From Chitinophagales bacterium (lineage in GTDB: Bacteria > Bacteroidota > Bacteroidia > Chitinophagales > JADJOU01): a stretch of 64,000 nucleotides of DNA. The position numbers and the translations under genes are program-made. Where the stretch lies: positions 62,001 to 126,000 of the forward strand of contig JAURJQ010000002.1 in the NCBI GenBank assembly GCA_030832185.1, in the 5' to 3' direction. Under the pieces are notes generated by a model. It ran no database searches. It was given only the letters and a program-made list of their open reading frames with translations, and was not told the DNA's origin. Position 1 is the first letter of the stretch. The number at the start of each line of letters is the position of its first letter. Below, piece by piece: positions 1,043 to 33,514 of this stretch.

Positions 1043-1693
1043 ATGATTTATAAATTAATAGAAACAAATTCCGTATTAACTATATTCCTCAATGAATTGA
1101 GAGATAAGGCCATTCAGAAGGATCGAATGCGGTTTCGTATAAATATCGAGCGAATAGCCGGCATCCTAGCTTATGAAGCTAGCAAGACTTTAATATTTGA
1201 AGACGATCAGATTCAGACTCCACTAGGCCAGAAAATGAGCCATGGCATTCAAGACCAAATAGTCATCGCTAGTGTCTTGCGCGCTGGCCTCCCAATGCAT
1301 TACGCTGTTCTAAATACATTTGACACTGCAGATAATTGTTTTGTGAGTGCTTATAGAAAGCATCATAAATCGGGCGAATTTGAGATAAGATTAGAATATA
1401 TTGCAAGTCCTTCTTTGGATGAAAAAACACTTATTTTATGTGACCCTATGATAGCTTCAGGTGCTAGTATTTTGGCTACTCTGGAGCAATTACAGCGCTA
1501 TGGCATTCCTAGGCGAATTTTGATTTTAGGAATCATTGGAAGTGCTCAGGGTGTAGAGACTGTTGCTAAAAAATTTCCCAACATTGATATTTTTATAGGA
1601 GATATAGACGATGAATTAACGGCTAAAAGTTATATAGTGCCGGGACTAGGAGATGCTGGTGATTTATGCTTTGGAGATAAAGTTGATTTATGA
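1043..1693 (+). CDS. upp: Uracil phosphoribosyltransferase
   Basis: 216 aa; PRPP-binding-like LCDPMIASGASILATLEQL; UPRT-like N-terminus and GDAGDLCFGD C-terminus. Confidence 0.9.
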   Translation: MIYKLIETNSVLTIFLNELRDKAIQKDRMRFRINIERIAGILAYEASKTLIFEDDQIQTPLGQKMSHGIQDQIVIASVLRAGLPMHYAVLNTFDTADNCFVSAYRKHHKSGEFEIRLEYIASPSLDEKTLILCDPMIASGASILATLEQLQRYGIPRRILILGIIGSAQGVETVAKKFPNIDIFIGDIDDELTAKSYIVPGLGDAGDLCFGDKVDL

Positions 1694-3597
1694 AATTAAA
1701 AATAAGCACTCTGTTTTTATTGTGTTTTACCATTATCTTAGGTCATGCACAAACAAGGCAAAATGAAATAGTTAATGAAGCTATAAGTTTATATGGTTTT
1801 GGAAGAATTGATGAAGCTTTTAAGGCCTTAGATGATTGTATAGCAAAGTATCCTAATTTTGACCAAGCACTCTATATAAAAGCTAATTGGTGTATCATTA
1901 GCAAGAAATACGGCGACGCGTTACCGCTTTTAGAAAAGCTTGAATCTATAAATCCTAAGTTTAACCCACAGCAAAAGAAACTCATTGCTGAATGTTATTT
2001 TTCTATGAAAAATTATGATAAAGCGGAAGAGTATATTCTAGAATTTTTAAAGCATCCTAATTTGAGCCCTCAAGCTCAAATATATGGACAGCGGATGGTG
2101 AAAAATTTAGACTTTGTGCGCAGTCAAACCAATAAAACAGCAAATATTGTTTATCATAACCTAGGCCCAGAAGTGAACTCATCGTTTAATGAATATTTTC
2201 CTTCAACCAATGGTGACGAATCTACTATTTATTTTACTCGAAGAGATAAACAAGGAGAGGATATATGGTTAAGTTATGCTCAGGGCAACAATTGGAGTAC
2301 CGCATACAAAATAGATGAACCAGAATTAGAGAATGAAATGAGATATGTTTCTATTAATACACATAGTAATGATGGGGCTCATACTATTTCAACGAACGGT
2401 AGGCAACTTTTATTTACATCGTGCCATAGGCCAGCACCTGATGGTTTGGGTTCATGTGATATTTTTATTTCATTTAAAAAAGGAGAAGAATGGGGTCGTC
2501 CAAAAATGATACCAGATGTGAATACTCGTGGATGGGAATCACAACCTTGTTTATCTGCGGATGGCAAGAGGTTGTTTTTTGTTAGTAGCCGTGAAGGTGG
2601 AATAGGGGAAAGTGATATATATATGAGCGTGCGCACTCAAGAAGGGTTTTCTACCCCAGTAAATTTGGGAGCGAAAGTCAATTCTATAGGAGCCGAAGAT
2701 AGGCCCTTTATACATCCAGATGGGCAGACCTTGTATTTTTCTTCTGATGCCCATCCTGGCTATGGTGGGAAAGATCTGTATATGTCTCGCTGGGAAAATG
2801 GAGAATGGCAAACTCCTATAAACTTAGGTGATCAAATTAATTCTATAGGAGATGAGATTTCTATTTTTATCAATACACTAGGAGATAAGGCATATATAGC
2901 TAAAGAAAATAATGAAAATAATCGCTCTGATTTTGATATTTATTCATTTAGTTTACCTAAAGAATTTAGACCTAAAACTGTAACCTATTTGAAAGGTATT
3001 GTATCAAATGCCAAAACAGGACAGCCACTCAAAGCATCTATTAAATTAAGTGATATAGCAGAGAGCAAATCTATTTATACCTTAAATAGTGATGAAAAAT
3101 CCGGAGATTTTTTGATGACTATTTTGGCTGATAAGGAATATGGGTTTCATGTGATAAAAGAAGGTTATGCTATTTACTCGCAGAATTACTCTTTTAGTGC
3201 CACCGACAATCAATTAACTCCACAGGTATTGGAGATAAAGCTTATGCCACTAGAAGCGGGGGCTAAATTTGAATTAAGAAATGTCTTTTTTGAGACAAGC
3301 AAATTTGATCTAAAAACTACCTCCTATCCTGAGCTAAATTACATCGTCGATATCTTAAAAAACAATCCTAATTTGAACATTCTTGTAGGCGGGCATACTG
3401 ATAATGCGGGTAATGTGGCTAATAATCTCACCTTGTCAGAAAACAGGGCGAAGTCTGTTATGAATTATTTAATAGAAAAAGGAATAGCAGCAGAGCGATT
3501 AAGCGCAAAAGGATACGGTTCTTCTAAATCAATACATACTAACGATACAGAGGAAGGAAGAGCAAAAAATAGACGTACGGAAATAGAGATTCTTTAA
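1690..3597 (+). CDS. PorE-like OmpA family protein (TPR + PD40 propeller + carboxypeptidase-regulatory-like + OmpA C-terminal)
   Basis: Signal peptide; TPR region; repeated SxDGxxLFFxSxRxGGxGxxDIY PD40 motifs; OmpA motif GGHTDNAGNVANNLTLSENRAKSVMNYLIEKGI...GRAKNRRTEIEIL. Confidence 0.85.
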   Translation: MKLKISTLFLLCFTIILGHAQTRQNEIVNEAISLYGFGRIDEAFKALDDCIAKYPNFDQALYIKANWCIISKKYGDALPLLEKLESINPKFNPQQKKLIAECYFSMKNYDKAEEYILEFLKHPNLSPQAQIYGQRMVKNLDFVRSQTNKTANIVYHNLGPEVNSSFNEYFPSTNGDESTIYFTRRDKQGEDIWLSYAQGNNWSTAYKIDEPELENEMRYVSINTHSNDGAHTISTNGRQLLFTSCHRPAPDGLGSCDIFISFKKGEEWGRPKMIPDVNTRGWESQPCLSADGKRLFFVSSREGGIGESDIYMSVRTQEGFSTPVNLGAKVNSIGAEDRPFIHPDGQTLYFSSDAHPGYGGKDLYMSRWENGEWQTPINLGDQINSIGDEISIFINTLGDKAYIAKENNENNRSDFDIYSFSLPKEFRPKTVTYLKGIVSNAKTGQPLKASIKLSDIAESKSIYTLNSDEKSGDFLMTILADKEYGFHVIKEGYAIYSQNYSFSATDNQLTPQVLEIKLMPLEAGAKFELRNVFFETSKFDLKTTSYPELNYIVDILKNNPNLNILVGGHTDNAGNVANNLTLSENRAKSVMNYLIEKGIAAERLSAKGYGSSKSIHTNDTEEGRAKNRRTEIEIL

Positions 3598-3650
3598 AAA
3601 TAGTTAAGACTGTTTAGTTTTTTTAAACCTTCTGTGTCCTTGATATATCT

Positions 3651-23214: not shown

Positions 23215-23319
23215 ATGAAATGTAATTTTATGAAATTGCAACAAAATTCTATACTAAAACGCGCGAATCCTTTTCGCAACGCTAAACGCATCCCGTTAAC
23301 CTTAAAACAGAGTCTATGA
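23215..23319 (+). CDS. Putative basic leader peptide / uORF (34 aa) overlapping start codon of the giant secreted protein
   Basis: MKCNFMKLQQNSILKRANPFRNAKRIPLTLKQSL*; TGA overlaps the ATG at 23316 (ctATGA); not in ORF track because short. Confidence 0.3.
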   Translation: MKCNFMKLQQNSILKRANPFRNAKRIPLTLKQSL

Positions 23320-26300
23320 AAACAATCTACTTTAAAATCAGCTTACTGCTGCTCTTTCTCAGTTTATTTTCTGGAATCTTCGCCATGGGCGGAGGTGGAG
23401 GTGGAGGCTGGGGGAGTGGTCCACGAAAGACCTCTTTATTCCTGGCGGGAGCAGAGCTTAAAGTGCGTCCCCTTAATGTAGCCCCTAAAACGGATCCCAA
23501 TACTAGAGATACGGTAGAGATACGCCTCATCTACTATCGTGACTGTGAGGCCAATCCTGGCACGTCTTATACTTTTCCCACTGTGACAGATACCATGATA
23601 GGTATGCTCTACAGTAAATCTAAGTGTGAGTTCTTAAAATTTGCTTGTTGGTTTAGAGCTGATTTATCGGATAGATATGCGACTCCGATATGCCCATATA
23701 ATAGTTTTGATACCAAATGTGAGACGGCGAATTCTGCTCGAATCGGCTACAGGACTGAAGTATTTACTGATACGGTCGTCCTACCCTACAATGCAGACGA
23801 TTGGGTGATCGGTATGATGTATAGTAATGCTGCTCTCACTACTACCATGGATTGGTACACCCGGAAATACGGCGGAACGCCCTCTAGGCAATGCGCTTTG
23901 AGTCAAATACAGGCCCCTCCTACAGGTTTCGGGGTGCCTCGTGGCATGAATCCTCCTAGTCCCTTTTCTGTAAGAATAGCGGGTATAAATATGAGAACAT
24001 TTGGTCAAGATCCCACGGAATCATACTTTTATATCGAAGCGGAATATAGTAATGCTATCCCATGTGGTTTTTTTCCTGGAGGAAATCCACCTATTCAAAA
24101 ATATTGTGCGAATACCACGCCTAATTCGGCAGGTACGCCTTTTATATTCATCTGTGAGAATAGACAACGGCTCTTTAATCTCGGCTATTTCGACGATGAT
24201 GGTCATACGCTAGCTTTCGAGAAGTCTACTCCTATGAAGGCGGGTTGTTTCGGGGACCCGGCATGCGGTCAGCCCGATAGAAGTATAGAATATCTAAACT
24301 TTGCAGGGATATATAATGAGAGCAATCCTTTAGGACCAGCATCTACATATATCATGGATCCAGCTACGGGAGAACTAGATATTACTATGCTGCCGCCGGG
24401 CGCACCTAAAACTGGTGTAGGAAAGTATAAAGCCGCAGTGAAAATTACAGAGACCGATCCTAAGTCAGGAGTTATAGCTGGAAAAGTATATAGAGATTTT
24501 ACGATTACTGTGATAGCTGATGAGGAGTGTGAGGCTGATAATTCATTAACTGAATCCTCCTTCTTCATTCCTGGTTCAGCGCATAATTTTCAGAATTGCG
24601 CTTTAGTGCCGGGTAGAACGGATTTGATAGAAGCCTGTGATGGTACTAATATTAAGTTTAGTGTTAGAGCTTTTTCTCTCACTAACTTGCCGAATGCAGC
24701 CCTTGTAATTACAGGGGAACTTTCCAATGGTATTTTAAATACGGGAGGGTTTATTTCCTCACAATATATAAATAATATCTTTCCTACATTTGATACAGCT
24801 ATAGGTACTTTAAATTGGAATATACCAGCGAATACACCGCCGGGTATTTATCCGGTTATCTTCCAGATTCGAGACTGTGTGAACGGATATATTTTGAGTA
24901 GATCGGTAGTATATAGAGTGCGCATTAATAAGAGAAACCGCATTGATTGGGGATATTTGAACTTCACTCCGCAGGGAACGAAAGCTATATTTTCTCTAGA
25001 CCCGACTTCTAGACGAGCATTTCATTGCGGCAGTCCGCTCCCTGTAGTATTATCTGCTGCATCTGTAGAAAATGATGCGATTATAGCATGGAGATCTTAT
25101 AAAGGAGCATCAACTACAACTGGAACTCTCGAAAATTCTGAACCAAATTCGGATAGTTGGGATCCAGCTCAGGCTGATCCTACTTCAAATTATGTAGTAG
25201 AAATGGTGACGAATCAGTACTGTAATAACCGAGACACGGTACTCTTAATTAGTAAGTCACCGATAACGCCTACTTTGCAGTCGAAATTACAAGATAGTTG
25301 CTTTAATACGAAAGGGCAGCTAGAAGTAGGTGGCCTATCTGCCAGTGCTGCTTTGACTTGTATGTATGATTGGCAGTCATTAAATTCAGAATACGATGTG
25401 ACTCCTAGTTTCCTTTCCAATACGGCTGATATACGATTGGTAAAAAAGGACAACACCTACATATGCTATGTTATTTCTCAAGATACCTGTATATACCCAG
25501 TGAGTGTAGAATTGACTATGAGTGGAATTAAACCAAGAGGTCAATTCGTGACGGATAGACAATATGCTTGTCCAGGCGATACCATCAATGTATTTAACGT
25601 CCTATTGACTACTTCTATATGTAGTCCTAGGGTAGAGTTTTCAAAGGAGAAGGCCAATAGTAATCTTACCTTTGCCTATCCAGGTACTCAGTCCAATACC
25701 AATCCTACACCAAAAGTATTTACAGCAAGTGCTACGATAGATCGTGGAAGAACCGCACTGCTATATAAAGGAACCGAACTTTGTGTTTTAGGTATGAAAC
25801 CAGGAATCGTAAAAGAATTGGCTTTCTATATAGATGGAGTCAATGATCCAAATATATATAACAATATAGATATATGGATGCGCTGTACAGATCGTTTCGA
25901 CCTGCAAAATGGCCAATTTGAAGATACGTTCTCAATGCGGAAAATGTTCTCCGCCTCCAATAAATCAATTTCTGTCGGATGGAATGACTTTGATATAGCA
26001 GACTTCGTATGGGATGGAAAATCCAATCTTTATTTTGAAGTATGGACGTCATGCAACAAGCCATGTAACAATCCAGTAGCGACTTCTCCTGCTTACCTCG
26101 ATAATTTGACCAACTATGTTTCCATCATAGGCAAATATGGTATTAGTGCAGGTACTTTTGAAACAAGTGGCGTAGTCACTTCAAATTCTAGACATAATAT
26201 TAGATTTAAGTATTCTGAATTGTTGGAAAACATACAGTTAGATTGGAATCAAAAACCTTTTACCTACTACGATGGCGAGAGAAATATTCCATATGTTTCT

Positions 26301-29240
26301 AATTTAGTGTCAAAGTCAGGCGGTAATCCATTTAAATCACTCCAGCCATCTATTGTTTCTTCCTACCCAGTTGTCTATAATGTGAAAATGACAAACGGTG
26401 CATGCAGTGATTCTGCCTTTGTACTCGCCCAAATTGATACGAATTATAAAGTAAAAGTGACTCCAAAGCTAGCGACTAAATGTACAGGTGATACTGTTCA
26501 CACATCTACTGAAAGAAGAGTTCTAGTGCCGAGACCCCTAAATCTAAATTGTGGCCCAATAGTTTCTGGGGCTTTATGTTCTAAACCTATCGCTGATCCC
26601 AACAATACTGGAGGTACAAGGGATGACGTTAATGGTGTAACAGGCGGATATGGCAATAAAGAAGAAGATTCCTGTAGAGTGAGAGATTCGATTTTTTTCC
26701 CGAGAATAGGAAATGCTACTACTACAGATGGTGCAGGCAATGTAAACCCTTCTCCATTTGGCGGGGGCGCTGGCGGTGTAGGCGCTTTAATTACGGACAA
26801 GAGAATTCAGATTTTATATCCATTTTCTGAATTAAAGAACATACTGGGTATGAAGCCTGGATATATTAGGGAGTTAGCATTCGAAATTGTACAACCTTTC
26901 GTCAATACCAATAAGATGCTAAACTTTGCTATACGTATGAAATGTGCGCCAAATAGCCAAGATTCTTTTGTTAATTCTAACTTTGAGTCCTTAGCTACCT
27001 TTGAAGAGGTCTTTTATAGAGAAGAGATAACTACTGTATTCGGTTGGAACCGTTTTACGCTCGATAAAGGGAAGGAGTATGCGTGGGATGGAAAATCTGG
27101 GATCATTATAGATATTTGTTTTGACAATTTCACTGGCTATGATTATAGATCGGAGCGAGTGAGAGCCACTACACAGACTAGGCGAAGATGCCTCAGTCAG
27201 TCAGCACGTACTACGGGTACTCAGGCCGAAGTATTTGGTTGTAATTTTCTAACTGGTGCCTTAGATTTAGTCAGACCTAATATTGAGTTCACGATATGTA
27301 AAGCTACACGAACCCCGCCTCCAATTCCTAGAGAAATATTTTGGGCTCCATTTGATTTTATAAGTAATACATTAATTCCGAACCCAATTATTTATAATCA
27401 ATTCACAACCAAATACTACACTATTCTAGATTATGTAGATACCACATATGGTAAGAATACAGTGATTTGTCGTGTTCGAGATACCATGAATTCCATAGTG
27501 GATCGTCCGACTATTACATTTGATCCACCTATAGCTGTGGCCTGTGAAGGTCAGTCTGTGACTGTATCTGCGGGAGTATTGGGTATGAATCAGAATTTGT
27601 ACACTTATGAATGGGATACGACCCAGTTTGGCAAGGTAAAAGCGGATTATACAAGTCCTGTGCAGATAATTCGTCCGCCAAATCCAGGCTATCATTATGT
27701 TAAAGTGAGAAGTGCAAATAATCCAAATTGTTATAATATTGATAGTATTTGGGTTGATATACAGAAGCTTAAAACCATGCCAGATCTTGGGGCCGCAGCT
27801 CTTATATGTCCTGGAGACTCCGTCTTATTATCTATCCCCAATAACGTGGGATACAAGAAACCAAGATGGAAATTCGCTGGACAAATTATTGATACAGGCT
27901 ATAGTCTTAAAGTAGCCACACCAGGTGCTTATAGCATGATAATAGATTCAGGTGCTTGTACGAATACCTCTCTCGACAAGTGGATTATACTTCGAAAAAA
28001 AGATACAGCAAGCTTATTAAATCTATTGGCTACTATATGTGAGGGAGATTCTGCTCTGATAGGATACAACCAAGGAGATGATATAGCAAATCCTATATGG
28101 AATACAGGGGCTACAACTCCATATATCAAAGTAAATCAACCTGGAATTTATTTCCTTGTAAATCCTAGAGATCAGTATGGCTGTTTAATGCACATGAGGG
28201 ACAGTACAACGGTTTCGGTTATATCCAACCCAGACTTTAAGTTAATCGATGATACTATATGTATGAGTAATAATCAGAAGATAACCCTACAGCCGGTGCC
28301 TTTTGATTCTAAAGCCCAATATACGTGGTATCCTGATGGCAGAAAGTTGCCTTACCTCGATGTGTATACACCAGGTGTATATAGGGTAGTAAGAGACATC
28401 AATGGTTGTCAAAAAGAAGCTACTGCTCTTGTAGTGAATGATACTGCAGGTAGAATCCTCTTAGGTAAAAATCAAGCTGTCTGCTGTGATGAGGTCATCA
28501 CTCTAGATGCTAATCCTGAGGGTAAGCGCTATAAAGGATATCTCTGGAGCTCTGGCCAGCGAAGTCAGGTGATTTATACGGCGCCAAACGTATCAGGTCT
28601 CTATGTGGTAGAAGCCATAAAGCCTAATGGCTGTAAGGATACGGGATCTATTTTTATTGATTCTAAGTGTGGTCAGGTTCGTGCTAAGCCCGATAGAGAT
28701 GTAATCTACATAGGTGAAGAGAATAAAATTAAAGGGGAACATTTGCTGATTACTGCTACAAATATTACGTATAAATGGATCCCAACATCGGATACAATCA
28801 ATAAGTTGAGATTTAAAGATAGTCTGAGTCCTATAGCTATTGCTAGAGATACTGGAGATATTGAATATGTTCTAGTTATGACAGTTACAGATTCTAACTA
28901 CATGCCTCCCAAGGAACCTTGTGTAGAAAATGAAGTTGTTCGATTTAAAACTTTGAAAAATCAAATGGACACTGTAAATATATTTACACCCGATGGAGAT
29001 GGAATAAATGATTATTTTTATCCCCGAGTGCTGGGAGTGGTAGAGTTTAAAGAATTTAAAATATATAATAGATATGGTCAACTTCTTCATGATGATGCTA
29101 AAAAACCATGGGATGGAAAATTCAATGGAGAGTATCAGCCAGTAGGAGTGTACGTGTCTTTTATTTCTTATGAACTCAATGAAGCACGAAAGGATAAACA
29201 AACAAAATACGATAAAATAATAGTGACGCTGGTCAGGTGA
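23316..29240 (+). CDS. Giant (1974 aa) secreted protein with CHU_C (T9SS type B) C-terminal domain, gliding-motility/adhesin-like
   Basis: Signal peptide followed by Gly-rich GGGGGGGWGSG; multiple Ig-like units; C-terminal VNIFTPDGDGINDYFYPRV..FKIYNRYGQLLHDDAKKPWDGKFNGEYQPVGVYV. Confidence 0.9.
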   Translation: MKTIYFKISLLLLFLSLFSGIFAMGGGGGGGWGSGPRKTSLFLAGAELKVRPLNVAPKTDPNTRDTVEIRLIYYRDCEANPGTSYTFPTVTDTMIGMLYSKSKCEFLKFACWFRADLSDRYATPICPYNSFDTKCETANSARIGYRTEVFTDTVVLPYNADDWVIGMMYSNAALTTTMDWYTRKYGGTPSRQCALSQIQAPPTGFGVPRGMNPPSPFSVRIAGINMRTFGQDPTESYFYIEAEYSNAIPCGFFPGGNPPIQKYCANTTPNSAGTPFIFICENRQRLFNLGYFDDDGHTLAFEKSTPMKAGCFGDPACGQPDRSIEYLNFAGIYNESNPLGPASTYIMDPATGELDITMLPPGAPKTGVGKYKAAVKITETDPKSGVIAGKVYRDFTITVIADEECEADNSLTESSFFIPGSAHNFQNCALVPGRTDLIEACDGTNIKFSVRAFSLTNLPNAALVITGELSNGILNTGGFISSQYINNIFPTFDTAIGTLNWNIPANTPPGIYPVIFQIRDCVNGYILSRSVVYRVRINKRNRIDWGYLNFTPQGTKAIFSLDPTSRRAFHCGSPLPVVLSAASVENDAIIAWRSYKGASTTTGTLENSEPNSDSWDPAQADPTSNYVVEMVTNQYCNNRDTVLLISKSPITPTLQSKLQDSCFNTKGQLEVGGLSASAALTCMYDWQSLNSEYDVTPSFLSNTADIRLVKKDNTYICYVISQDTCIYPVSVELTMSGIKPRGQFVTDRQYACPGDTINVFNVLLTTSICSPRVEFSKEKANSNLTFAYPGTQSNTNPTPKVFTASATIDRGRTALLYKGTELCVLGMKPGIVKELAFYIDGVNDPNIYNNIDIWMRCTDRFDLQNGQFEDTFSMRKMFSASNKSISVGWNDFDIADFVWDGKSNLYFEVWTSCNKPCNNPVATSPAYLDNLTNYVSIIGKYGISAGTFETSGVVTSNSRHNIRFKYSELLENIQLDWNQKPFTYYDGERNIPYVSNLVSKSGGNPFKSLQPSIVSSYPVVYNVKMTNGACSDSAFVLAQIDTNYKVKVTPKLATKCTGDTVHTSTERRVLVPRPLNLNCGPIVSGALCSKPIADPNNTGGTRDDVNGVTGGYGNKEEDSCRVRDSIFFPRIGNATTTDGAGNVNPSPFGGGAGGVGALITDKRIQILYPFSELKNILGMKPGYIRELAFEIVQPFVNTNKMLNFAIRMKCAPNSQDSFVNSNFESLATFEEVFYREEITTVFGWNRFTLDKGKEYAWDGKSGIIIDICFDNFTGYDYRSERVRATTQTRRRCLSQSARTTGTQAEVFGCNFLTGALDLVRPNIEFTICKATRTPPPIPREIFWAPFDFISNTLIPNPIIYNQFTTKYYTILDYVDTTYGKNTVICRVRDTMNSIVDRPTITFDPPIAVACEGQSVTVSAGVLGMNQNLYTYEWDTTQFGKVKADYTSPVQIIRPPNPGYHYVKVRSANNPNCYNIDSIWVDIQKLKTMPDLGAAALICPGDSVLLSIPNNVGYKKPRWKFAGQIIDTGYSLKVATPGAYSMIIDSGACTNTSLDKWIILRKKDTASLLNLLATICEGDSALIGYNQGDDIANPIWNTGATTPYIKVNQPGIYFLVNPRDQYGCLMHMRDSTTVSVISNPDFKLIDDTICMSNNQKITLQPVPFDSKAQYTWYPDGRKLPYLDVYTPGVYRVVRDINGCQKEATALVVNDTAGRILLGKNQAVCCDEVITLDANPEGKRYKGYLWSSGQRSQVIYTAPNVSGLYVVEAIKPNGCKDTGSIFIDSKCGQVRAKPDRDVIYIGEENKIKGEHLLITATNITYKWIPTSDTINKLRFKDSLSPIAIARDTGDIEYVLVMTVTDSNYMPPKEPCVENEVVRFKTLKNQMDTVNIFTPDGDGINDYFYPRVLGVVEFKEFKIYNRYGQLLHDDAKKPWDGKFNGEYQPVGVYVSFISYELNEARKDKQTKYDKIIVTLVR
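25755..26067 (+). repeat. Intragenic duplicated domain, copy 1
   Basis: ALLYKGTELCVLGMKPGIVKELAFYI...IWMRCT...GWNDFDIADFVWDGKSNLYFEVWTSC. Confidence 0.6.
26800..27150 (+). repeat. Intragenic duplicated domain, copy 2
   Basis: IQILYPFSELKNILGMKPGYIRELAFEI...IRMKCA...GWNRFTLDKGKEYAWDGKSGIIIDICFDN. Confidence 0.6.
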
Positions 29241-30259
29241 TGAAGAGAAAAATTTATTGGAGTCTAATATTAATTTGGGGGTGGAGTATTTCAATACTTC
29301 ATTCCCAAAATAATTTACATTATAGCCAATTCTATAATGCTCCTATGTTTTTAAATCCTGCTTTCACTGGTCAGATAGGTGAGGACTTGTTTAGACTGAA
29401 TGCTCATGCTAGAAATCAATGGTCTGGCTTATCAGGGGCAGATGGTAAATTTTTATATGAAACACGATCTGGAGGTGTCGATTTATCATTGATGAAGCGT
29501 AGATTCGGAGTTGGACTCTATATCATGCAAGATGTAGCGGGAGGCGGAATATTCTCCACGACTCAAGGCAACTTATCTATGTCCTATTCTTTTATAATGG
29601 GAGACAATGTTTTAAGTTTTGGGGGCCAAGGACTTTATAATTTAACGCAACTGAATCCAAACGACCCAAGGTGGGTAACCGGTTCTCAGTTTTTGGAGCC
29701 AAGTAATTCTTATTTTGATTTCAACGCAGGAGTCAATTTTAAGTGGGATCTTTATTATCTGACGGCAGATATTGGTTTAGCTTCAAATAATTTGATTCAA
29801 GCGCCACAGCGTTTTTCTCAGTCGGGCACTCAAGGATTGCAGGTACCTAGGTCTTACAAGGCATATACATTACTAGATTTTGATATGACGGAACGCATGA
29901 AGTTGCTCCCGGGTTTTTATGGATCTTTTCAGGCGGTATCTACTAATTTTGTTATGGGAACAAATTTTTCTTATAAACTGCTGAAAGGAGGGACTTATGG
30001 GAATAGTATCATTATGGGCGTTTGGTTCAGAACCAATGATGGGAACCTAGAATCTGTGATTCCGAAATTTGGCATGAAAATGAACAAACTTCAAATTATG
30101 GGCTCTTATGATGCTAATGTATCTCTTTCCAAGGCGGGAAGTTCAAAATATTTAAATGGAATTACGAACACTTTTGAAATAAGTATTATATTTACAGGCA
30201 AACCAAAAGTAACTCCTCCTTTGTTAGAAGATGACTTTATTCTGAACCCTAGATATTAA
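29237..30259 (+). CDS. PorP/SprF family T9SS outer-membrane protein
   Basis: SQNNLHYSQFYNAPMFLNPAFTGQ...RLNAHARNQWSGLSG; overlaps stop of the giant CDS by 4 nt (translational coupling). Confidence 0.9.
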   Translation: MMKRKIYWSLILIWGWSISILHSQNNLHYSQFYNAPMFLNPAFTGQIGEDLFRLNAHARNQWSGLSGADGKFLYETRSGGVDLSLMKRRFGVGLYIMQDVAGGGIFSTTQGNLSMSYSFIMGDNVLSFGGQGLYNLTQLNPNDPRWVTGSQFLEPSNSYFDFNAGVNFKWDLYYLTADIGLASNNLIQAPQRFSQSGTQGLQVPRSYKAYTLLDFDMTERMKLLPGFYGSFQAVSTNFVMGTNFSYKLLKGGTYGNSIIMGVWFRTNDGNLESVIPKFGMKMNKLQIMGSYDANVSLSKAGSSKYLNGITNTFEISIIFTGKPKVTPPLLEDDFILNPRY

Positions 30260-30285
30260 ACCTATATATAAACTATAAGAGAATT

Positions 30286-32448
30286 ATGCACTGTATCCCA
30301 AGAATAGTCTTACTTATAGCTCTATTCAGTTTTGTATTTCAAGTTTCCTCTCAAAACAGGACTAGTCCTTCAGCTAGAAATACGGAGAAATCCAAGCCTA
30401 ACCAGTTGAATCAAGACTTGGTTAAGTATAAGAATTTATCCTATGGAAAAATGTTGAGATATGCTACATTACTGGAAAATGATGGAAGCTATGTCAATGC
30501 TGTAGAGTATTATAAAATGGCTCACGCAAAAAAACCAACCAATAAATGTGTCTTGCAGAAATTATCTGAGTTAAATTTCAAACTTAGAGATTATGTAGCT
30601 GCAGAAGAGTATACTAGAAAACTTTTGGATTTAGATAAAAAATATGATAAAGACGCTGACATAAGACTGGCGTTATGTATGAAGGCAAATATGAAATATA
30701 AAGATGCCTTAGATGAATTAAATTATGTGCGCGCTAATAAAAAATCTACACTTTCTATGAGCATAGTGGAGAACGAAATAAAAGGTGCAGAATTAGCAAT
30801 TGAAACTAGAAACATAAAAGATCCAAAAATAGCGGTAGAGAATGTAAAGCAAATTAATGGATATCTGCAAGAATATGCTCCTCAGCCATTGAAAAATGAC
30901 AATTTAATCTACTCATCTTTGATATCTGATACAGCATTAAATGTTACTAGGCTGAAGTATGAAGGTAAAGATTATACTTCTAAAATAGTATTTACCAAAT
31001 TAGATCGAGATAAGAATATTTTTGCTCGTCCTGAGCTATTACCTCAGGAAATTAATAAGCCTGAGGTACACATAGGCAATGGTTTTATAGATGAAGCGGG
31101 AAAGACAATATACTACACCCAGTGCGCTGAAGATAGAAAACTTAATATGAAGTGTAAGCTTTGGATGGCAGAAAAAAAAGATGGTGTATGGGTGCCAACT
31201 GAATTGACTAAGCTAAATGAAAAGGGAACCACGAATACACAGCCTGCTCTTTACGACGATGGTTTAGGCGCTAAGTATCTTCTTTATGTTAGCGATAGAC
31301 CCAATGGTAAAGGCGGAATGGATATTTGGGCTTCAAAAATTAACGATGGTAGTGCTACTGCAGCCCTTACTGAGAAAAAAACAAATACCAAGGCATCTAA
31401 AGGTAGTACAGGTAAATTTGGTGAACCAGTGAATCTAACACAGATAAATACGTTTGGAGATGATGTGACCCCTTTTTATCAGAAAAAAGATAAAACTTTA
31501 TATTTCTCATCAAATGGCTACCCAAGTGTAGGTGGTCATGATATCTTCAAAGTGAATGGTGTAATTGGAAAATGGGATAAAGTAATCAATATGAAATTTC
31601 CAATTAACTCTTCGGTTGATGATCTTTACTTTAAGTTAGATGAGAATGATGAGGGCTACTTTGTGTCTAATAGAAATGGATCGAAATCTCCTAGAGGCTA
31701 TACCTGCTGCGATGACATATGGAGTGTTCGTAAGGCTGAATATAATATTTGGGTCAAATCTATTTATGTCTCTTCTGCGGATATAGATACTAAGAAGCCA
31801 TTAAATGGTGTAGACGCCTTGATGATAGATAAAGATGGCAAATTAGTCATACGTGCAGTGACAGAAAAGGATAGTCATTTTATGGTAAAGGTCAATGCGG
31901 GCCAATCGTACAGAGTGAACGGATTAAAAGAAGGTTATTATCCGGGTATTGACTCATTTTCTACTCCTAAAGTTTTATTTAAAAATGACACTATATATAA
32001 GACCTTTTATCTAGATCCAATCGAGAAGAAGCGCTATGTAGTAGAAAATGTCTATTATGCATTTGATAAATCAGTTGTGCGGCCAGAATATTTTACTATC
32101 CTTGATAGTGTTTTATCTTTAATGAAAATTTTCCCGAATGTATTCTTAAAAATAGATGGGCATACCGACGGACGAGGTACAGAGGTCTATAACCAAGCTC
32201 TTTCAGAAAGAAGATGCAAGGCTGCGGCTGAATATTTATTAGAAAAAGGCTTAGCTCCAGAGCGAATCATTATGAGAGGATATAGTGAATTAGTTCCTAT
32301 TGCTCCAAATACTACTCCATCTGGAGAAGATGATCCTGCGGGTAGAGCAAAAAATAGGCGAGTGGAATTTAAGCTTCTTTCTCCTAGTGGTAGAGATCCT
32401 AAATATGATATAGACTACAGAGTCAATGTCCCTTTCGGTATTGAGTAG
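30286..32448 (+). CDS. PorE-like OmpA family protein (TPR + PD40 + OmpA)
   Basis: TPR N-terminus; DGLGAKYLLYVSDRPNGKGGMDIWAS, DKTLYFSSNGYPSVGGHDIFK; OmpA motif LKIDGHTDGRGTEVYNQALSERRCKAAAEYLLEKGL...GRAKNRRVEFK. Confidence 0.88.
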   Translation: MHCIPRIVLLIALFSFVFQVSSQNRTSPSARNTEKSKPNQLNQDLVKYKNLSYGKMLRYATLLENDGSYVNAVEYYKMAHAKKPTNKCVLQKLSELNFKLRDYVAAEEYTRKLLDLDKKYDKDADIRLALCMKANMKYKDALDELNYVRANKKSTLSMSIVENEIKGAELAIETRNIKDPKIAVENVKQINGYLQEYAPQPLKNDNLIYSSLISDTALNVTRLKYEGKDYTSKIVFTKLDRDKNIFARPELLPQEINKPEVHIGNGFIDEAGKTIYYTQCAEDRKLNMKCKLWMAEKKDGVWVPTELTKLNEKGTTNTQPALYDDGLGAKYLLYVSDRPNGKGGMDIWASKINDGSATAALTEKKTNTKASKGSTGKFGEPVNLTQINTFGDDVTPFYQKKDKTLYFSSNGYPSVGGHDIFKVNGVIGKWDKVINMKFPINSSVDDLYFKLDENDEGYFVSNRNGSKSPRGYTCCDDIWSVRKAEYNIWVKSIYVSSADIDTKKPLNGVDALMIDKDGKLVIRAVTEKDSHFMVKVNAGQSYRVNGLKEGYYPGIDSFSTPKVLFKNDTIYKTFYLDPIEKKRYVVENVYYAFDKSVVRPEYFTILDSVLSLMKIFPNVFLKIDGHTDGRGTEVYNQALSERRCKAAAEYLLEKGLAPERIIMRGYSELVPIAPNTTPSGEDDPAGRAKNRRVEFKLLSPSGRDPKYDIDYRVNVPFGIE

Positions 32449-32572: not shown

Positions 32573-33514
32573 GTGGCACTCAATAAAGATGTAAAAGTAG
32601 CTTTACTTACCTTTCTTTCCGTTATTCTATTTATAGTCGCTTATCTATTTATGAAAGGCACCTTACTGCAAAGCGGAAATCCAAAATATTGCGCCATCTT
32701 CCAGAATGTAGATAAGGTTAAGAAATCAGATCACGTCTATTTGAGTGGAGTTGTTGTGGGTACGGTGGATAAAATTGAATTTACAGATTTAGCTCATCCT
32801 AAGGACGTTCGAGTGATCTTCACCGCCGATAAGGAATTAAAGATTCCCAAGGATTCTAAAATACAAATAACTAGTACGAGTATTATGGGCAATATGGGTT
32901 TAGTCTTACATTTAGGAAATTCTAATGAGGTAATCCGTGAAATGGAAACAATAATGGGTCTTCCTGAAAACGGAATACTCCAATCACTATCTAGTGAAAT
33001 TGGCCCTTTAGCTAAGTCATCTGATTCCTTATTACATAATGTAAACTCCTTATTTGATCGAGGACAAAAAGAAAATGTCTATATCACGGTAGATCAAATG
33101 AATGCTACATTAGCCACCATTAATATTACATTGGCTAATATGAACAGAATGATAGAGAATAATCAAAAACCCATTCATCAGACCATGGTTAATTTTGAGC
33201 GTATTTCAACCTCTCTCGCTAAAAAACAAGACGATATCAATGCAACTATTTCAAATATTCGTGAGTTAACAGGTAAGGCAAATCAATCAGATATTACTGG
33301 TATGATGCAGAATTTAAATAAATCAGTCAATGAGATGAATATCTTATTGTCAGATATAAATCAAGGACAAGGGAGTATGGGTAAATTGATGAAAGACCCT
33401 TTGCTATATAATAATTTAAACACGACCGTACAAAATGCGAATGAGTTAATGATTGATTTCAAGGCGAATCCTAGACGCTATGTTGGATTTTCAATTTTCG
33501 GAGCTAAGAAGTAG
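32573..33514 (+). CDS. MlaD/MCE family protein
   Basis: Single N-terminal TM; CAIFQNVDKVKKSDHVYLSGVVVGTVDKIEF...SIMGNMGLVLHLGN; GTG start. Confidence 0.88.
   Translation: MALNKDVKVALLTFLSVILFIVAYLFMKGTLLQSGNPKYCAIFQNVDKVKKSDHVYLSGVVVGTVDKIEFTDLAHPKDVRVIFTADKELKIPKDSKIQITSTSIMGNMGLVLHLGNSNEVIREMETIMGLPENGILQSLSSEIGPLAKSSDSLLHNVNSLFDRGQKENVYITVDQMNATLATINITLANMNRMIENNQKPIHQTMVNFERISTSLAKKQDDINATISNIRELTGKANQSDITGMMQNLNKSVNEMNILLSDINQGQGSMGKLMKDPLLYNNLNTTVQNANELMIDFKANPRRYVGFSIFGAKK

Follow-up and report, generated by a model that had tools for sequence, protein, structure and literature searches.

Within a 64,000-nucleotide stretch of a Chitinophagales bacterium contig (JAURJQ010000002.1; hereafter the window), a three-gene cassette probably forms a dedicated type IX secretion system (T9SS) module that, by analogy with characterized relatives, displays a giant adhesin-like protein in a wall-anchored, static state. 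The cassette encodes a giant protein with a type B C-terminal domain (CTD), a PorP/SprF-family outer-membrane carrier and a PorE-like protein. In the proposed mechanism, a signal peptide would take the giant into the periplasm, from which it would cross the outer membrane via SprA; the adjacent PorP/SprF-family barrel would then take it over at its type B CTD and remain bound to it. The barrel's periplasmic tail would dock on the PorE-like protein, and the OmpA domain of the latter would grip peptidoglycan, so that the giant would be tied to the cell wall and kept off the gliding track. The support drawn from the present data consists of gene order, domains, conservation, the lack of a tail cysteine, the retention of peptidoglycan-binding residues and a carrier tail type that tracks PorE lineage. 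Relatives contribute carrier-dependent secretion, a PorE-PorP-substrate complex (PMC9143113) and a static substrate (PMC12618676), and it is from these that the steps are extended to the three proteins considered here, including the presumed contact between the carrier's NPRY tail and the PorE-like protein. An initial annotation of the window had proposed a dedicated substrate plus secretion/anchoring module, which remains the best reading, is well supported and is consistent with what has been published about type B substrates with their PorP-like shuttles.

The three open reading frames all lie on the forward strand, at 23316-29240 (1974 residues), 29237-30259 (340 residues, GTG start) and 30286-32448 (720 residues), and their domains bear out the three-gene cassette of the initial annotation: CHU_C, PorP_SprF, OmpA and PD40 all score above cut-off, while the tetratricopeptide (TPR) assignment falls below it. 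The reported 4-nt overlap of the first two genes holds for the GTG start at 29237, while the adjoining and equally possible ATG codon at 29240 gives an overlap of 1 nt (TGATG); in G005, a genome of the same family, the carrier gene begins with ATG and overlaps its upstream neighbor by 1 nt. The 26-nt gap between the carrier and PorE-like genes was confirmed by the coordinates. Because this order and near-identical spacing recur in five relatives, three from the genus (G001, G002, G003), one from the family (G005) and one from another family (G014), the layout is beyond chance. Close relatives that carry a name are Saprospirales, Sphingobacteriales and Chitinophagales bacteria assembled from metagenomes.

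The host genome (2.2 Mb, 31 contigs, 99% complete) encodes both SprA and GldK. It also holds ten PorP/SprF genes and 20 CHU_C domains above cut-off, which makes the cassette one among several carrier systems; in six of them, a type B protein is encoded immediately upstream. The description of the locus as an uncharacterised surface machine was thus overstated, as its carrier is one of ten in the genome and Flavobacterium johnsoniae has five such operons, one substrate of which has been imaged as static (PMC12618676).

The carrier (29237-30259) matches PF11751 with 117 bits (cut-off 22.3) over model positions 3-271 of 273, and TIGR03519 with 146.5 bits (cut-off 90.55); no related solved structure was detected by sequence. 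It has no cysteine anywhere in the protein and terminates in ILNPRY; of the last four residues of its periplasmic tail (30245-30256), NPR is conserved in relatives. The PorE-like protein (30286-32448) combines a TPR-like region with PD40 (residues 387-421) and OmpA (residues 590-680) domains. Within its OmpA domain (32053-32325), D628, N636 and R643 align without gaps with Asp576, Asn584 and Arg591 of Porphyromonas gingivalis PorE (6top), the side chains that bind peptidoglycan (PMC7192894), and all three are invariant in six relatives. A further TPR-PD40-OmpA protein of 635 residues is encoded at window positions 1691-3598 (L084:5691-7598); it adjoins no PorP/SprF gene and scores 233.5 bits against the PorE model, close to the score of the cassette protein.

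Studies of gliding in F. johnsoniae provide the background against which these features can be read. There, SprF is disulfide-bonded through a C-x-C motif in its C-terminal tail to the moving GldK track, and in the absence of this motif the adhesin is still displayed while normal movement is lost (PMC12635249). No porE-like gene adjoins sprB-sprF, whereas six F. johnsoniae porP-like genes have one, and it was proposed that the substrates of these six are fixed to the wall; a PorE-PorP-PG1035 complex is known from P. gingivalis (PMC9143113). Fjoh_3952, the substrate imaged as static, is encoded with a PorE homologue, while the movers tested so far are not (PMC12618676). The published split thus assigns moving type B proteins to Cys-tailed carriers lacking a PorE neighbor, and static ones to loci with such a neighbor. 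The window cassette fits the static kind cleanly: neither its carrier nor the tails of that carrier's relatives contain a cysteine motif of the SprF type, and a PorE-like gene lies immediately downstream. The label SprB/SprF-like, applied earlier to the cassette, is therefore misleading.

Within the host genome, 8 of 10 carriers have a tail cysteine, and each of the two exceptions, the window carrier and C16, is followed by a PorE-like gene. This relationship was explored further by a PorE-first draw, in which PorE-like proteins of the window type, then of the C1 type, served as queries and the tails of the upstream carriers were read. With the window-type query, all 29 readable loci had a carrier directly upstream with no tail cysteine, of which 28 ended in NPR[FY] and one in NPIY, across families f1, f5, f8, f10 and f20; an overlapping draw of named genomes gave NPR[FY] in 20 of 20, again with no tail cysteine. 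The NPR residues were identical in 21 carriers including that of the window (16 distinct at 90%; median identity 39%), in an alignment in which 34 of 344 columns were fully conserved. The query of the C1 type, a sister PorE lineage found in the host genome, returned carriers with tail cysteines in 26 of 28 cases, mostly as C-x-R-[FYL]. When 122 PorE-like proteins were placed on a tree, the 34 labelled NPR formed one clade (support 100) with a single change of that label, and the Cys label changed 4 times versus 27 in shuffles. Co-inheritance of linked genes would produce such a pattern as well; the argument for constraint is that the terminal residues are so strictly conserved. Tail type does not track the giant, as f22 relatives of the giant adjoin carriers ending in LFCPRF with a PorE-like gene next. 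The f22 loci L051, L053, L055, L057 and L059 have tails LFCPRF or LFCPRY, compared with LFNPRY or ILNPRY in the window lineage, and a PorE-like gene follows in both. At C1 itself (L083:8093-11094), the carrier tail YYSIDCLRL stands beside a PorE-like gene, and this type, as far as its genes tell, breaks the published two-way split. Two patterns appear to be new with respect to the open papers searched: that tail type and PorE lineage are strictly paired, and that some carriers have a PorE neighbor together with a tail cysteine.

Broader surveys of the phylum delimited what can be generalized. A first set of 153 loci was drawn phylum-wide, and the class of PR tails was defined after these tails had been seen; a PorE neighbor was present for 46 of 54 PR tails and 5 of 70 Cys tails, an association never matched in 20,000 within-genome shuffles. 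For a second set of 40 new loci, the rule linking tail type to a PorE neighbor was stated before they were fetched, and PorE neighbors accompanied 9 of 18 PR tails versus 7 of 21 (odds ratio 2.0, P 0.34). This set contained a single Cys-tailed locus, and all 16 of its carriers with a PorE neighbor lacked the cysteine. The failure of the PR-tail test is partly explained by porP of porP-porK-porL-porM rows, which has PR tails too, and the idea that PR tails imply a PorE gene next door was rejected. The general rule that a PorE neighbor excludes a Cys tail, which the host genome and the first set had suggested, was likewise rejected after the outcome in the second set, the tests on a carrier tree and the PorE-first sampling, which yielded 26 Cys-tailed carriers beside PorE-like genes. 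On that tree, built from 194 carriers, no independent-pair test of tail against PorE neighbor reached significance, and both traits behave as clade properties with few independent changes.

Another kind of tail was found in seven first-set carriers, which bear long C-terminal extensions. Pfam was run on three extensions, two from the first set and one from the second: one matched OmpA at 67 bits, another SPOR at 38.8 bits, and the last SPOR at 20.3 bits, slightly short of the cut-off. The barrels concerned are L217, L219, L223, L225, L228, L232, L306 and L326; the L217 extension is OmpA with TSP3 repeats, that of L223 is SPOR, that of L306 is weakly SPOR, and the remainder look similar by eye. 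Extended barrels look like carriers that bring a peptidoglycan-binding domain of their own and, since OmpA and SPOR are both peptidoglycan-binding families, this suggests that the tail is the site where the carrier is held. As a speculative hypothesis on the mechanical meaning of these patterns, the last carrier residues might constitute its coupling: C-x-R-[FY] would form a covalent link, N-P-R-[FY] and [ST]-P-R-F-F would dock on the PorE lineages that correspond to them, and a SPOR or OmpA domain fused to the barrel would grip the wall directly. The window carrier would then be an N-P-R-Y type born in a Cys-tailed clade, in which a one-residue change four from the end helped to convert disulfide coupling to pure wall docking. 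Two further observations concern GldK. At C26 of the host genome (L077:5142-7785), the gene after a Cys-tailed carrier matches the GldK family in part; its product, a lipoprotein resembling GldJ or GldK, is separate from the true GldK on C11. In addition, because GldK-like proteins downstream of porP in L171, L175, L318 and L323 have GFRT or GFRD near the C-terminus in place of the GFRC of the host GldK, the C-terminal cysteine of GldK is not invariant.

Several results weigh against a static, wall-anchored module for the giant. Among the 20 named carrier/PorE loci, a giant lies directly upstream in 9 and at 487 nt in 1, and is missing from the other 10, which makes the carrier/PorE pair the conserved unit. 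The third protein scores 241.9 bits against the PorE model NF052230, under the curated cut-off of 600, and no cysteine follows the signal-like stretch, as judged by eye, in this protein or in five relatives; given this score and the missing lipobox, it is classed from its sequence as PorE-like and not as PorE in the strict sense. Its best NCBIfam model is that of CHU_0125 (278.9 bits, cut-off 620). In the tree of 194 carriers, the window carrier is nested in a clade of 44 members (support 96), 40 of which have a tail cysteine, their tails often ending CP[RK]F as opposed to NPRY. Finally, the absence of cysteine is no proof of immobility, because SprF stripped of its cysteines continues to engage in short contacts with the track (PMC12635249).

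The first of these results leads to the alternative that the pair is the lineage's working, house-keeping PorP-PorE, with the giant serving as a cap, a role suggested for PG1035. Conservation of the pair across five families, often without the giant, is in line with this idea, as is the finding of no PorP on the GldK-bearing contig. It is nevertheless unlikely, since carriers encoded in porP-porK-porL-porM rows group in a clade of their own (support 96), the C16 PorE-like protein of the same genome fits PorE better than the cassette protein does (324 versus 242 bits), and many genomes with a T9SS lack the carrier or have a different one. Somewhat more doubtful still is a gliding adhesin module like SprB/SprF, in which the GldK track would carry the giant along the cell. 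The same substrate-carrier gene pair, the presence of GldK in the genome and the Cys-tailed clade around the carrier speak for it; the carrier itself lacks the cysteine, and the adjoining PorE-like gene has no counterpart at sprB-sprF or with the tested F. johnsoniae movers.

The giant (23316-29240) contains 51 cysteines and has an N-terminus that resembles a signal peptide by eye; its orthologues are 97, 78 and 76% identical in three relatives within the genus and 34% in G005. The searches that the initial annotation had proposed returned CHU_C as well as PorP/SprF domains above cut-off. The CHU_C sorting domain (residues 1886-1962; 28971-29201) scores 42 bits for PF13585 (cut-off 27) and 39.2 bits for TIGR04131 (cut-off 35), by which the giant is classified as a T9SS type B substrate; it is presumably an adhesin. 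The Pfam scan matched CHU_C alone with no SprB repeat, in keeping with the claim of no close resemblance to SprB beyond the CTD, although SprB itself was not aligned. Profile-profile comparison revealed an internal duplication of residues 806-909 (25731-26042) and 1157-1267 (26784-27116; strands in the model), with a probability of 97% and 35% identity over 104 columns. The model of the C-terminal half (residues 1085-1974; mean pLDDT 72.7) is a string of beta domains, including an Ig-like array at approximately residues 1401-1880 (27516-28956), and its fold matches in the PDB are Ig arrays; the model of the N-terminal half (mean pLDDT 35) is unusable. These matches are headed by segments of GhpA, the grappling hook protein of Aureispira, and GhpA is also recovered by a family profile, scoring 867 bits over 15 stretches, C-terminal sorting domain included, yet a related prey-catching or cell-cell gripping device is very improbable, because a search with the single giant sequence recovers no GhpA at E values up to 1, TM-scores of about 0.25 point to generic Ig repeats and the giant is much shorter (1974 versus 5898 residues).

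Downstream of the cassette lies an MCE/MlaD-domain gene on the same strand (32573-33514; PF02470, 45 bits), which is the 3' neighbor in all five f1 genomes read and, in G005, has a 4-nt overlap with the PorE-like gene. It is a possible fourth operon member on this arrangement; none follows the cassette in G014. A promoter and terminator scan gave counts equal to those in shuffles.

While the window cassette conforms to the static kind, its relatives add a further kind to the published split, with a PorE neighbor and a Cys tail. Given the pairing with PorE lineage, the tail can be put to the test as the mechanical coupling of the carrier. A precise question can then be asked in a gliding bacterium that is tractable: what each carrier tail holds, and whether this decides between moving and staying.

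Comparison with known systems places these proteins as follows. Like the giant, GhpA (PDB 9flp and others) has an array of Ig repeats, and the C-terminal sorting domains of the two are similar, but GhpA is approximately three times longer and the similarity is visible only by family profile. CHU_0125 of Cytophaga hutchinsonii (PMC5891637) has the TPR-PD40-OmpA architecture of the PorE-like protein, which scores far under the cut-off of its model. SprB-SprF (PMC12635249) likewise sets a giant type B substrate beside a PorP/SprF-family carrier, but SprF has a C-x-C tail and no adjacent porE-like gene. PG1035-PorP-PorE (PMC9143113) comprises the same three protein kinds with the same OmpA peptidoglycan-binding residues; PG1035 is small and P. 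gingivalis PorE is a lipoprotein, in contrast to the window proteins, whose genes are clustered. Fjoh_3952-Fjoh_3951-Fjoh_3950 and its sister operons (PMC12618676) have in common with the cassette a type B substrate, a PorP/SprF-like carrier and a PorE homologue in order, and were proposed to form a wall-anchored static complex; Fjoh_3952, compared by description only, as were the other Fjoh sequences, seems unrelated to the giant outside the CTD. In its gene content, the cassette is thus a new member of an already published kind of operon, fitting the model of a substrate encoded with a PorP-like carrier and a PorE-like anchor.

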